The notes beneath the pieces were generated by a model. That model was not told the DNA's origin, searched no databases, and was given only the letters and a program-made list of their open reading frames with translations. A stretch of 32,334 nt of DNA from Bacillota bacterium (GTDB taxonomy: Bacteria; Bacillota_I; Bacilli_A; Acholeplasmatales; Acholeplasmataceae): contig JAHIRQ010000019.1 of NCBI GenBank assembly GCA_018818645.1, forward strand, positions 1 to 32,334, read 5' to 3'. Below, one piece after another: positions 24,321 through 29,632 of this stretch (its first letter is position 1; every line of letters starts with the position of its first letter). The position numbers and the translations under genes are program-made.

Positions 24321-24394
24321 GCCCCCATAGTTTAGTGGTAAAACGCAGCAATGGTAATGCTGAAATACAAGTTCGATTCTCGTTGGGGGCACCA
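24321..24394 (+). tRNA. tRNA-Thr (anticodon GGT)
   Basis: A full cloverleaf of 74 bases with encoded CCA. The acceptor GCCCCCA / TGGGGGC is perfect; the D stem is GTTT / AAAC; the anticodon stem CAGCA / TGCTG holds the loop ATGGTAA, anticodon GGT. The T arm (ACAAG TTCGATT CTCGT) has one A-C mismatch. G1-C72 and C2-G71 plus G35-U36 agree with known threonine identity elements. Single gene with its own promoter and terminator. Confidence 0.93.
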
Positions 24395-24406
24395 GTATAT
24401 AAATGA

Positions 24407-24435
24407 AAGCGACTCTTAATCTGAGTCGCTTTTTT
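24407..24435. terminator. Terminator shared by tRNA-Thr and the M50 protease gene
   Basis: A perfect 9-bp stem AAGCGACTC / GAGTCGCTT (24407-24415 and 24423-24431) with a 7-nt loop. Rightward it ends in six T; leftward it is followed by TTTCATTTATA, a poorer tract. The stop codon of the leftward gene sits in the loop. Confidence 0.88.
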
Positions 24436-25663
24436 GTTCTTCTTCGATAACAGGTTCAACTTCTTCCAAATGAACTACCGTGCTATACTCTCTAAATGGA
24501 AGTTTCTCATGATGTGCTTGAAGTAATTCATATGGGTCTACTAAGACATCAAATATCCAGTTATTTCCAATAAAATAGTTATCCTTATTGGAAAGAAATG
24601 AATCCTGATATTCGAGATGTAAGATATGCATATATTTCATTTTGTTATAATTAAGCATCTTTGAATCCAATTTTGTGCTTACAAGTTTTTGAATATCATC
24701 AAATAATTTATATGCTTTTTCAACATTGCTATTGAAATAATGATAACTTGCAATATCATAGATTAAACTTAATCCCAGTTCATCTTTTAAATATTTCCTG
24801 ATTGGTATCCGATTGATTTTAATATCGATCGTATGATCTAAGGGTTCATCTCTTCGAATAACTCCATCGATGTAGCTCAGTAGGATCATGGTATGAAACT
24901 GTGATGAACTGATTGGTAAACCTTTTAATGTATCTCTAGATTTTTCCCATATGAAGTGATCGGATTCTTTTGAATCTGATAAGGTAAACATCGAGTATTG
25001 AGTAATCATCGCTAGGGCAAATGTCTGATCAGTTCTCATCTTTTTATAAGCTACAAAATCTCCAAAGAACATTGGGTTCGATAAAGTAAATGAATATATA
25101 AAAAGTAAATTAATTGGTATAGCATAAAATGCTAATAAATAGATGATTCCCATGAATTCACTTTGAGGAACAAATAAGACTGCTAAGATGAATGAAACGA
25201 TTGTAACCGATAAAAATGTAATGGTTACAATAGGTGCTGCGATTAATGCTCTTGAGAATTTTTTTACTATTTTTTGATACTCGTTTTCATCCTTAACATC
25301 TCCAAAATCTGGAACGACTAACCCACCAAGTAAGACAATCAATTTAGGTTTAATTCTAAATCTCCAGCCCTTTTCTGTTTTATGAAAAATAAAGATTGTG
25401 ATATAGAGTGCTCTAAGCTTAACCTGTTGAAAAACAAAGGAAAAGAAGTGTCCTAATTCATGAATAGTTAGGGAAATATAAAAAGTTAAGAAAAACCATA
25501 GTAGATAATCCAAAAATGTTAGTGAACTTCTAACGTCATTGAAACCTAGCCACTGGCTGACTTGACTGAACCCTAAAAAAGAATATAAAATAAGTGTTAA
25601 TACAACAAGAAAAGGTAGGAATCTAAACTTTATTTTCTTCTTTTTCTTTTTATCGAATGCCAT
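24416..25663 (-). CDS. M50 (site-2 protease-type) membrane metalloprotease
   Basis: A membrane protein of about 415 residues with the zinc-protease motif HELGH (68-72) inside a hydrophobic segment, and a downstream NPMFFGDF that fits the third zinc ligand (Asp) of site-2 proteases. Membrane segments lie at about 14-32, 50-68, 95-110 and 140-190; the C-terminal 190 residues are soluble and helical, of unknown fold. The frame is open from 25729, but the ATG at 25663 (MAFDKKKKKKIKF), which overlaps the end of the P-II-like gene by 14 bases, fits a basic cytosolic start; its Shine-Dalgarno (AGGAAG) is distant, so the start is uncertain. Third gene of the DUF1538 operon. The substrate is unknown. 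Confidence 0.82.
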   Translation of the reverse strand: MAFDKKKKKKIKFRFLPFLVVLTLILYSFLGFSQVSQWLGFNDVRSSLTFLDYLLWFFLTFYISLTIHELGHFFSFVFQQVKLRALYITIFIFHKTEKGWRFRIKPKLIVLLGGLVVPDFGDVKDENEYQKIVKKFSRALIAAPIVTITFLSVTIVSFILAVLFVPQSEFMGIIYLLAFYAIPINLLFIYSFTLSNPMFFGDFVAYKKMRTDQTFALAMITQYSMFTLSDSKESDHFIWEKSRDTLKGLPISSSQFHTMILLSYIDGVIRRDEPLDHTIDIKINRIPIRKYLKDELGLSLIYDIASYHYFNSNVEKAYKLFDDIQKLVSTKLDSKMLNYNKMKYMHILHLEYQDSFLSNKDNYFIGNNWIFDVLVDPYELLQAHHEKLPFREYSTVVHLEEVEPVIEEEQKSDSD

Positions 25664-26315
25664 AGGTTTGGTGAACTTCCTGAACAAATATGATTCCATT
25701 TCCGGGTTGATCAATATCAAGTTCCTCACAAATGGATGTGATGATTGGTTTTACAATCTCTTTTTGGGCAAGAATTAATACAATTTCTTTTTCAGGTTCT
25801 ATCTCCATGGCGAATAACTTACTTGTTTCATGAATACCTGATCCTCTTGCATTGATGATGGTTGCACCTTTGGCACCTGCCATAGTTGCTGCATCAACAA
25901 CCTTTTCTCCTGATCCTTTATCTACAATTGTAAATATTGCTTTATATTCAGTCATATTATGACCTCCAATTTCATTTTTAGCTTCATACTCATATTTTCC
26001 AGCACCCAAAAACTGTGTTACAGGGATTACAAATGCTATACCATGATGTGGTTTAGCGAGTTTTAGTTTCTCATATAAAGCATCTAGTGCAGGATTGATA
26101 ATCTTTCTAGGTGCAATCATCAATACCAATTCTTTTCTAGTTTCTGTAAGCTCCAAAAATTCAAGTAAAGGTCTTTTATGTGTACCCTTACCTAGAATGA
26201 TTGTACCTCCAAGAATACCCTCTTCTTTCGCATATTTTAATACCTTACTGCCTATACCATAATTGACGATGATACATAACATTTCAAAGTTTGATAATAA
26301 AGATATGTTTTCCAT
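25650..26315 (-). CDS. Tandem P-II-like signalling protein
   Basis: A 221-residue protein made of two P-II-like ferredoxin folds (about 8-100 and 122-218). The halves align: MLCIIVNYGIGSKVLKYAKEEG with YKAIFTIVDKGSGEKVVDAA, then GGTIILGKGTHK with GATIINARGSGI, KELVLMIAP with KEIVLILAQ, and PHHGIAFVIPV with GNGIIFVQEV. P-II proteins bind ATP, ADP or other nucleotides between subunits and control transporters. No classical uridylylated Tyr is evident. The ATG follows AAGGAGG and starts 1 base after the DUF1538 stop. The fused pair would act as a pseudo-oligomer. The ligand is unknown. Confidence 0.88.
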   Translation of the reverse strand: MENISLLSNFEMLCIIVNYGIGSKVLKYAKEEGILGGTIILGKGTHKRPLLEFLELTETRKELVLMIAPRKIINPALDALYEKLKLAKPHHGIAFVIPVTQFLGAGKYEYEAKNEIGGHNMTEYKAIFTIVDKGSGEKVVDAATMAGAKGATIINARGSGIHETSKLFAMEIEPEKEIVLILAQKEIVKPIITSICEELDIDQPGNGIIFVQEVHQTYGIR

Positions 26316-26316
26316 C

Positions 26317-27795
26317 CTAGATACCTCCTTTTCTTGATCTTATTTTAAAGACAAATCCTAGTAACTGCAGGGTAATGATTGGGGCTAATGCAACTAAAGC
26401 AATCATTCCAAAACCATCAAGTAAGACGTTCGCACTCGGAGTCGCATTTGCAGCACCTGTTGTAAATGCGAGAATGAATGTTGCTGTCATTGGACCTGTT
26501 GCAACTCCTCCGGCATCAAATGCTATCCCTACAAATAGCTTTGGAACCATAAACATTAAGGCTAGTGATATGATATATCCCGGTAACAATAGATGCCATA
26601 ACTGCAGGGATGGAACCAATATTTTTAAGATGGAAAGCATGATGGCAAATCCTACTCCAATCGATAAGGGGATAAGCACAGCTTTCTTCTTAACATAACC
26701 TGATGTTATATCTTCAATTTGATAAGTCAATACTGAGACTGCAGGTTCTGCAGCGATTGTAAAAAGTCCAAGCAAGAAGGCAATCAGCAAGATATACACT
26801 TTATGATCTAAGAGAGCTAACGTATAACCTATTTTTGAACCAACTTCCATAAAGCCTGCATTGACTCCAACTAAAAAGATAAATAAACCGAGGAGAGCAT
26901 AGATAAAACCCTTAAGAATTCTAATGAATGCTCTTTTTGTTAATTTAAATGAAACAGTTTGCAATATAAACAAAATGATTATCAGGGGTAATAAAGACAT
27001 AAAACTCTCATTGAATACAGAAGTTACGATTGATGTAAAAGGTTTTATGATTTCTGTAGATTCAGTAATGTTTTCTGGGATATGAGCTGCAAAGTTTAAG
27101 TTCCTATTGAAGAAACCCAAAATCATGAGAGCGATGATTGCCCCAGTGGAAGCTATCGATACTAGACCAAAGCTATCTTTTTCTGATGATTTACTGTCCT
27201 TCTTCATTTTGGTAATACCAATAGATAATGCAAGTAGAAATGGTACTGCTAGAACACCTGTGGTTGCACCTGAGGCATCAAATGAAATAGCTAAAAATTC
27301 TGGTGATGTAAAAAATGCTAACACAAATATAATCAAGTATAGAACAAGTAATATTCGATATAGAGGAAGGTTATAGATAATTCTAATGAAACCTAAGCCA
27401 ATCATGATTGCTAGACCTATGGAAACACTAATTAAGATACTGACAGATGATATATCACCTTGGGTGACAAAGTCTACTTGATTCGAAAATACGAGTAAAC
27501 CAGGCTCAGCAATCGAAATAAAGAATCCTAGAATTAAACCAGCTACTAAAACAATTACGAGTTTATTGGTCTTAGTAAGGGTAGATCCTGTGTGACTTCC
27601 TAGCGGAGTTATCCCTAAATCAACACCAACTAAAAATAGTGATAAACCGATGATTACAAACACTGAACCAATGATAAAGCGAATTAAAAAAGGTGTAGAT
27701 AGTGGAACAAGTGTGAAGTTTAAAATAATAACTATAAGAGTAATGGGAACAACTGCTATGATATTATCTCTAAATTTCTCAGCTAAAATATTCAC
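26317..27795 (-). CDS. DUF1538 family membrane protein (probable transporter)
   Basis: A polytopic membrane protein of about 492 residues built from two homologous halves of the DUF1538 type. Paired motifs: FLVGVDLGITPLGSHTG with FLVGVNAGFMEVGSKIG, ISIAEPGLLVFSNQVDF with TIAAEPAVSVLTYQIED, and AISFDASGATTGVLAVP with GIAFDAGGVATGPMTAT. The duplicated AEP and FD-GG/A-TG motifs in membrane segments look like a transport path. The frame opens at a GTG (27804), but the GTG at 27795 has GGGGAG 8 nt upstream and is chosen. First gene of the operon with the P-II-like and M50 genes. Function is unproven; pairing with P-II-like proteins suggests a regulated transporter. Confidence 0.88.
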   Translation of the reverse strand: MNILAEKFRDNIIAVVPITLIVIILNFTLVPLSTPFLIRFIIGSVFVIIGLSLFLVGVDLGITPLGSHTGSTLTKTNKLVIVLVAGLILGFFISIAEPGLLVFSNQVDFVTQGDISSVSILISVSIGLAIMIGLGFIRIIYNLPLYRILLVLYLIIFVLAFFTSPEFLAISFDASGATTGVLAVPFLLALSIGITKMKKDSKSSEKDSFGLVSIASTGAIIALMILGFFNRNLNFAAHIPENITESTEIIKPFTSIVTSVFNESFMSLLPLIIILFILQTVSFKLTKRAFIRILKGFIYALLGLFIFLVGVNAGFMEVGSKIGYTLALLDHKVYILLIAFLLGLFTIAAEPAVSVLTYQIEDITSGYVKKKAVLIPLSIGVGFAIMLSILKILVPSLQLWHLLLPGYIISLALMFMVPKLFVGIAFDAGGVATGPMTATFILAFTTGAANATPSANVLLDGFGMIALVALAPIITLQLLGFVFKIRSRKGGI

Positions 27796-27834
27796 GTTGC
27801 TCACTCCCCTTCTTCTGTTTGTTATTCTATTTAA

Positions 27835-28041: not shown

Positions 28042-28116
28042 GTGGGCGTCGTATAATGGTTATTACACGTGCTTGCCAAGCATGAGATGGGGGTCCGATT
28101 CCCCTCGCCCGCTCCA
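28042..28116 (+). tRNA. tRNA-Gly (anticodon GCC)
   Basis: A 75-base cloverleaf with encoded CCA (discriminator T). Acceptor GTGGGCG / CGCCCGC has one G-U at 2-71. Anticodon stem CGTGC / GCATG, loop TTGCCAA, anticodon GCC at 28075-28077. T stem GGGGG / CCCCT. The T loop reads TCCGATT, with C at position 55 (28095) where nearly all elongator tRNAs have T. The D stem has a T-T mismatch at 13-22. Own promoter and terminator. Confidence 0.93.
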
Positions 28117-28220: not shown

Positions 28221-28228
28221 TCATATCG

Positions 28229-28345
28229 TTGTATGTCTCCGAATCACAATGATTTGAGTGGGGGAACCAGTTTTTTGGGGTGAATCATCACATGAAGGGT
28301 AACTTGGAACCCTAACCCGTCAGCTAACCTCATAGGAGTAATCAC
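28229..28345 (+). promoter_or_regulatory. c-di-AMP riboswitch (ydaO/yuaA class)
   Basis: The leader carries the conserved blocks of the ydaO/yuaA aptamer in order: CCGAATC (28239-28245), GGGGGAACC (28260-28268), a T run, GGGGTGAATC (28277-28286), GGGTAACTT (28297-28305) and AACCCGTCAGCTAACCTC (28314-28331). Helix P1 can form between CTCC (28237-28240) and GGAG (28335-28338). The class senses cyclic di-AMP and mostly controls potassium and osmolyte transport, usually shutting expression off when ligand binds. A terminator follows at once, fitting transcription control of the antiporter gene. Outer edges are approximate. Confidence 0.93.
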
Positions 28346-28346
28346 C

Positions 28347-28383
28347 AAGCGTGTAGTCTATGCTAAGACTATGTGCTTTTTTT
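28347..28383 (+). terminator. Riboswitch expression-platform terminator
   Basis: A 13-bp stem (28347-28359 with 28366-28378, three consecutive G-U/U-G pairs in the middle) with a 6-nt loop and a run of seven T (28377-28383). It lies between the aptamer and the antiporter start. Confidence 0.9.
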
Positions 28384-28423: not shown

Positions 28424-29632
28424 TTGAACATCATTTTAAAAATTAGTATAATTCTTGTTGCAGGTTTCATCTTTGGAAAAGGAGCGAAATTTTTAAAGCT
28501 CCCCAGTGTATCTGGTTATTTAATTGCTGGTCTTCTGCTTGGGCCATCTTTATTTAACTTTGTATCTAGTGAAGAAGCTGAATCCTTTGAAATCATTAGT
28601 GAGATTACATTATCCTTCATCGCTTTTGGTATCGGTAGTGAGTTTATGCTTAAAGATATCGTTAAAATGGGTAAAAAGATAGCAATTATTACACTCGCAG
28701 AAGTCGCTGGTGCAATCATTGTAGTATTTTCAGTCATGTATTTTCTATTCAATCAAGATTTTGCATTCTCTTTAGTCATCGCTTCTATGTCAGCAGCAAC
28801 TGCTCCTGCAGCTACAATTATGGTCATTAGACAATATAGAGCATATGGACCTGTGACAAAAACAATTCTTCCTGTAGTAGCACTTGATGATGTATTTGGA
28901 ATTGTAGCTTTTGGTATTGCAATATCGGTTGCTAAAATACTAGTCTCTGGAACTGAATTCTCGATATTAAAAATTATCGGTGTTCCAATTTATGAAATAT
29001 TTGGTTCTCTTCTCCTGGGATTGATACTAGGAGTTGTTCTATCTTTATTAACTAAGAAAATTGATCCAAAAGATGAGCTTCAGATTAAAACAATATTCTT
29101 TGTTGGTATCGCGACAGGATTATCAAAAGTTCTTGATTTCTCACCACTTCTCACCAATATCATGATGGGAGCAACCTTAGCAAATCTCAGAGTATTTTCA
29201 AATCGATCATTTTCTGCAGTTAACGACTTCGTTCCTATATTCTATATTTTATTCTTCACAATTGCTGGTGCAGCACTTGATTTGAAAATACTTTATACGG
29301 TTGGACTTATAGGAGCAGGCTATATTGTAGCAAGAGCTTCAGGAAAGATCTTAGGTGCCTTCATTGGTGCCAAATGGGTTAAGGCGGAACCTCAGGTTCA
29401 AAAATATTTAGGATTTGCATTATTGCCCCAAGGTGGGATATCAATAGGGCTTTCTGTTATCGTGATGCAACAGCTTCCAATGTATTCTATTCAAATAACA
29501 ACAATCATTATGGCAAGTGTTCTTTTCTATGAAACACTCGGTCCAATCTTTGCAAAAATATCGATACATAAAGCAGGAGAAATTAATATATTACCTGATG
29601 TCGATGAAATGTATGAGGAATCAGCTCACTAA
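28424..29632 (+). CDS. CPA2-type cation/proton antiporter
   Basis: A 402-residue membrane antiporter of the Na+/H+ exchanger fold (KefB/GerN/NapA relatives), 11-12 membrane segments. The ion site shows ALDDVFGI with the Asp pair D155-D156, and the crossing unwound helix SAATAPAA (123-130). The protein ends soon after the last segment (EINILPDVDEMYEESAH), with no TrkA-N/RCK domain, so gating must come from elsewhere or expression alone. The start is TTG with AAGGATGA 9 nt before it; the in-frame alternatives are worse. Controlled by the c-di-AMP riboswitch. Substrate probably K+ or Na+ by context. Confidence 0.92.
   Translation: MNIILKISIILVAGFIFGKGAKFLKLPSVSGYLIAGLLLGPSLFNFVSSEEAESFEIISEITLSFIAFGIGSEFMLKDIVKMGKKIAIITLAEVAGAIIVVFSVMYFLFNQDFAFSLVIASMSAATAPAATIMVIRQYRAYGPVTKTILPVVALDDVFGIVAFGIAISVAKILVSGTEFSILKIIGVPIYEIFGSLLLGLILGVVLSLLTKKIDPKDELQIKTIFFVGIATGLSKVLDFSPLLTNIMMGATLANLRVFSNRSFSAVNDFVPIFYILFFTIAGAALDLKILYTVGLIGAGYIVARASGKILGAFIGAKWVKAEPQVQKYLGFALLPQGGISIGLSVIVMQQLPMYSIQITTIIMASVLFYETLGPIFAKISIHKAGEINILPDVDEMYEESAH

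Follow-up and report, generated by a model that had tools for sequence, protein, structure and literature searches.

A conserved DUF1538-P-II gene pair, very probably a cation/proton antiporter with a P-II-type control protein, next to a site-2-type protease gene in Acholeplasmataceae

We describe a three-gene cluster in a 2.2-Mb draft genome of the Acholeplasmataceae (genus of Peloplasma), in which a double DUF1538 membrane protein and a tandem P-II protein very probably make up a cation/proton antiporter and its P-II-type control protein. The DUF1538-P-II module is real, widely conserved and seemingly undescribed. With moderate confidence we read the whole cluster as an UmpAB-like antiporter controlled by the tandem P-II protein, with the protease encoded behind them as a co-transcribed neighbour that has its own job. 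Four observations support this reading, namely the domain identities, the near-universal pairing, a confident structural model with repeated membrane acids, and a second P-II/antiporter pair in the same genome. The window, by which we mean the whole 32,334-nucleotide stretch of DNA analysed, holds the following features around the cluster:

24321..24394, plus strand: tRNA-Thr(GGT) (ARAGORN), conserved marker flanking M50 on one side
24416..25663, minus strand: membrane metalloprotease of the M50 site-2 type, its C-terminal half helical and TPR-like (Pfam, AlphaFold2)
25650..26315, minus strand: tandem P-II-like protein (Pfam P-II; residues 11-104 and 125-219)
26317..27795, minus strand: membrane protein with two DUF1538 domains, predicted fused UmpA/UmpB-like antiporter (Pfam PF07556)
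28042..28116, plus strand: tRNA-Gly(GCC) (ARAGORN), conserved marker on the other flank, with DUF1538-P-II between it and M50
28227..28353, plus strand: c-di-AMP riboswitch (ydaO/yuaA; Rfam RF00379, 83.4 bits)
28424..29632, plus strand: neighbouring CPA-family Na+(K+)/H+ exchanger (Pfam PF00999, E 3.8e-37)

The original prediction of three tightly packed genes holds in each detail. On the minus strand the order is DUF1538, tandem P-II and M50; the first two genes are separated by a 1-nt gap, and the P-II and M50 genes overlap by 14 nt (ATGGCATTCGATAA), with the M50 ATG at 25663. The P-II gene has a perfect AGGAGG site, and for the DUF1538 start the GTG at 27795 suits a GGGGAG Shine-Dalgarno site better than the alternative, mechanically called GTG at 27804. 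A bidirectional terminator-like hairpin (24405-24433) lies at the end of M50, before the converging tRNA-Thr. The predicted domains were also recovered, all three above curated Pfam cut-offs: DUF1538 twice in one protein (PF07556, E 2.9e-130; 432 bits over two stretches, cut-off 22.6), P-II twice in one protein (PF00543, E 8.2e-16; 58.6 bits, cut-off 25) and Peptidase_M50 (PF02163, E 7.7e-11; 42.2 bits, cut-off 27.2). Since the three-gene order recurs in 11 genomes, it is not a chance arrangement. In G006, a genome of the same genus, the DUF1538 protein is identical to that of Peloplasma aerotolerans (Mycoplasmatota, Acholeplasmataceae).

DUF1538 had initially been taken as uncharacterised, which proved incorrect, as UmpAB of Halomonas zhaodongensis is a heterodimeric, two-component Na+(Li+,K+)/H+ antiporter whose transport has been measured (PMC5484666). 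UmpAB and the window protein share two DUF1538 repeats and the same Pfam family, but UmpAB consists of two components whereas the window protein has both halves in one chain. It also scores below the NCBIfam equivalog cut-offs (165.9 bits against 490 for UmpA and 144.5 against 500 for UmpB), and we therefore call it a member of the DUF1538 family, make no UmpA/UmpB equivalog claim, and note that the transported cation may differ. The AlphaFold2 model (pLDDT 89.5, pTM 0.88) has two similar halves, with an E-P pair at a helix break in each. E97, P98, D173 and D427 are invariant across 42 DUF1538 sequences and E350-P351 is conserved in at least 90% of them; judging from the model, the helix-break E-P pairs would make an attractive ion site. 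Comparison of the model with the PDB gave no clear match using Foldseek (best E 0.046, TM-scores ~0.1-0.2) or a second structural comparison (best Z 5.1 at 15 A rmsd), and we rejected a known fold for DUF1538 on these grounds, which does not in turn show that the fold is new.

Both domains of the P-II protein were recovered by an iterated profile, and the second-domain profile matches solved P-II structures (best E 7.1e-6), so the P-II fold that had been proposed is upheld by the Pfam and profile matches. Precedents for P-II-type control of transporters are SbtB acting on SbtA (PMC8352866) and GlnK acting on Amt (PMC8395244). As with SbtA-SbtB and AmtB-GlnK, a membrane transporter is here encoded with a P-II-fold regulator; unlike them, the transporter belongs to another family, and the regulator has two P-II domains and lacks the classical signatures. 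At DUF1538 loci, 0 of 290 P-II domains matched the PROSITE uridylylation or C-terminal P-II signature, whereas E. coli GlnB, used as control, matched both patterns. In an alignment with GlnB the T-loop is seen to be shortened. An adenine nucleotide would be the default guess for the P-II ligand, though the signatures that classically go with ATP and 2-oxoglutarate are missing.

The pairing of the two genes extends well beyond the window. Of 101 relatives, 62 have DUF1538, almost always in the form of a double protein of ~500 aa. Genes were called on the fetched loci, and a locus counts as evaluable if 300 nt or more of sequence follow DUF1538. For 66 of the 67 evaluable DUF1538 genes of the order, a P-II gene on the same strand lies no more than 700 nt downstream. 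Two P-II domains follow DUF1538 in 61 of these cases, one in 4 and three in 1, with some of the single-domain counts apparently coming from ORFs overlooked by the simple gene caller. The sole evaluable exception, genome G063, has no P-II gene near DUF1538; a P-II gene of the exchanger-linked type is found elsewhere in that genome, and no exchanger was found beside it. In a scan of named species genomes (the best 80 of 585 relatives, mostly clostridial and with a bias to Bacillota), P-II lies behind DUF1538 in 79 of 79 loci with a continuing contig, and in 73 of those 79 it is a single two-domain gene. Three of the named loci fell beyond the distance window of our script because the P-II start was overcalled. 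The pairing also reaches the Alphaproteobacteria, where umpA-umpB operons on two plasmids (Chelativorans, Methylocystis) have a P-II gene behind them, and the single P-II of these plasmids resembles the second P-II domain of the window protein. Clusters with three or four P-II genes, or with two DUF1538 genes, were seen in G076, G064 and G088. The Halomonas UmpAB paper makes no mention of a P-II partner (PMC5484666), nor did the part of the literature covered by our search. A transporter controlled by P-II had been put forward as a plausible reading, and since DUF1538 and P-II form a conserved pair, it is now the best one.

Most Bacillota DUF1538 proteins carry an acidic-hydrophobic C-terminal tail (such as DDEIIEL). 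By a strict pattern, defined after the tails had been viewed, the tail is found in 40 of 68 relatives compared to ~5 in shuffled tails, and in 64 of the 80 named loci (best 80 of 585) compared to ~4. It is absent from the window clade and also from the G063 protein, which has no P-II gene nearby; docking of the P-II protein may therefore differ in the window clade. The idea that the tail is lost whenever P-II is fused holds among the relatives but is false in clostridial loci, where a fused P-II and the tail are found together.

The product of the M50 gene is a genuine site-2-type protease and is probably active. H68, E69 and H72 of the HELGH motif are invariant in 34 relatives, as is G201-D202, whose Asp is a candidate for the third zinc ligand expected in a later helix. 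The AlphaFold2 model (pLDDT 90) was ranked poorly by Foldseek alone; the second structural comparison ranked RseP and SpoIVFB first, their entries filling the first seven places (Z 8.6-11.5 over residues 48-222 of the model). The window protein shares HELGH, the later GD motif and the fold with RseP, SpoIVFB and other PF02163 proteases, and differs from RseP and SpoIVFB by its TPR-like helical C-terminal half.

Whether M50 belongs with the pair is a different matter. Its position next to DUF1538-P-II is not restricted to one genome, as M50 lies directly behind the pair in the 11 genomes mentioned above, which span three genera, and no conserved link to DUF1538 is seen beyond these genera. The suggestion that the protease is the novel part of the unit fared less well, since M50 keeps its place without DUF1538 and is found at 0 of the 80 named DUF1538-P-II loci (best 80 of 585 relatives). 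It also had no match on the plasmids. In 23 genomes tRNA-Gly(GCC) stands directly before M50 with no DUF1538 between them, and tRNA-Thr(GGT) usually follows M50. When the pair occurs here, its place is precisely between tRNA-Gly and M50 (10 of 10 genomes with a readable upstream side). The set used for the M50 tree includes 22 genomes without DUF1538 and 12 with DUF1538 elsewhere, and because the tree needs six changes, gain and loss are indistinguishable. Across Acholeplasmataceae, genes come and go in the slot between tRNA-Gly(GCC) and tRNA-Thr(GGT), with M50 as its constant member. In G037 and G024, the gene coupled to M50 on its upstream side, with 4 nt of overlap, comes from an unknown family (cluster c13), and genes of this cluster are also found near DUF1538 loci of other families. 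The ABC genes behind P-II in G036 gave an apparent synteny that we rejected, as they are not orthologs of the window ABC pair (~29% identity).

These comparisons bear on an alternative in which the three genes act as one unit, with the site-2-type protease setting the antiporter level by cleaving the antiporter itself, the P-II protein or a membrane anchor. The 14-nt gene overlap, the intact active-site residues, and the presence of M50 downstream in 10 of 10 members that can be read in the fused-P-II clade of the window all speak for it. The DUF1538 of G020 is also found beside M50 and belongs to another lineage (a joint grouping with the window clade was rejected, AU test p 1.8e-5), and finding M50 next to DUF1538 in two separate lineages gives a hint of something beyond inheritance. 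However, the pair occupies one and the same pre-existing tRNA-Gly/M50 slot in G020 and the window clade, as would also be expected from a hot spot or from gene replacement, and many DUF1538-P-II genomes have no M50 homolog. Together with the retention of M50 where DUF1538 is missing or located elsewhere, and its absence from the named loci, this makes the alternative unlikely, and the comparison with empty tRNA-Gly/M50/tRNA-Thr sites weakens any single functional DUF1538-P-II-M50 unit. We read the protease as most probably a neighbour that is co-transcribed; its gene belongs to an older tRNA-Gly/M50/tRNA-Thr locus, and the enzyme most likely does its own job.

The only other P-II (PF00543) gene in the genome encodes 112 aa and is followed after 10 nt by a CPA-type exchanger (locus L280:2339-3893 on contig C173; exchanger L280:2339-3544). 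Among relatives, a CPA-type exchanger is within ~250 nt of P-II genes of this second type at 25 of 30 loci. Two P-II types therefore pair with two antiporter families in one genome. The exchanger at 28424 in the window is homologous to the exchanger of this second locus (42% identical), and it is divergent from the cluster and preceded by the c-di-AMP riboswitch, which is overlapped by a terminator-like hairpin (28347-28378) ahead of the exchanger. Elsewhere the genome encodes a DAC-domain cyclase and a separate PstA-type receptor. With the riboswitch, the cyclase and this receptor nearby or in the genome, c-di-AMP is a candidate ligand for the tandem P-II protein. PstA, a c-di-AMP-binding P-II-like protein (PMC4316997), shares the P-II fold superfamily with the window protein, which lies near a c-di-AMP riboswitch, but PstA represents a distinct Pfam family and the genome has its own gene of that type; the window protein matches P-II and has no PF06153 (PstA/CdAMP_rec) match.

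It could also be argued that DUF1538 carries a cargo other than alkali cations, such as a small organic ion, and that P-II, like GlnK and SbtB, signals the nitrogen or carbon state. In favour of this, ammonium and bicarbonate transporters are among the known targets of P-II-type proteins (PMC8395244, PMC8352866), a single DUF1538 pair has been assayed in the literature we found, and no solved transporter clearly matches the predicted fold. Against this, exchange of Na+, Li+ and K+ was measured for UmpAB (PMC5484666) and the genome's other P-II gene is also next to a cation/H+ exchanger, and we consider a different cargo improbable. UmpAB was active in E. coli from a 4.2-kb insert without a co-cloned P-II gene, so P-II is dispensable for basal activity; this fits P-II domains that have their site of action elsewhere in the cell and share only a transcript with the antiporter. 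Such a separation is very unlikely, as the pairing is nearly universal among the sampled Bacillota and extends to Alphaproteobacteria, and as another antiporter family is paired with a second P-II type.

In the antiporter reading that we prefer, the DUF1538 protein would be a single-chain UmpA-UmpB antiporter that swaps Na+, Li+ or K+ for protons. The P-II gene product would be a soluble two-barrel protein docking on its cytoplasmic face, and a small molecule bound to the tandem P-II may turn transport up or down. More tentatively, these genes may represent an undescribed class of cation/proton antiporters from two unrelated families (DUF1538 and CPA), gated by non-classical P-II proteins with non-classical ligand sensing, the conserved acidic tail of most Bacillota DUF1538 proteins serving as docking peptide. 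P-II proteins are the textbook sensors of nitrogen and carbon. If our reading is true, their role would widen to include the homeostasis of ions and pH in many bacteria from the gut and the environment, and the pairing would offer a way into the control of DUF1538 transporters.
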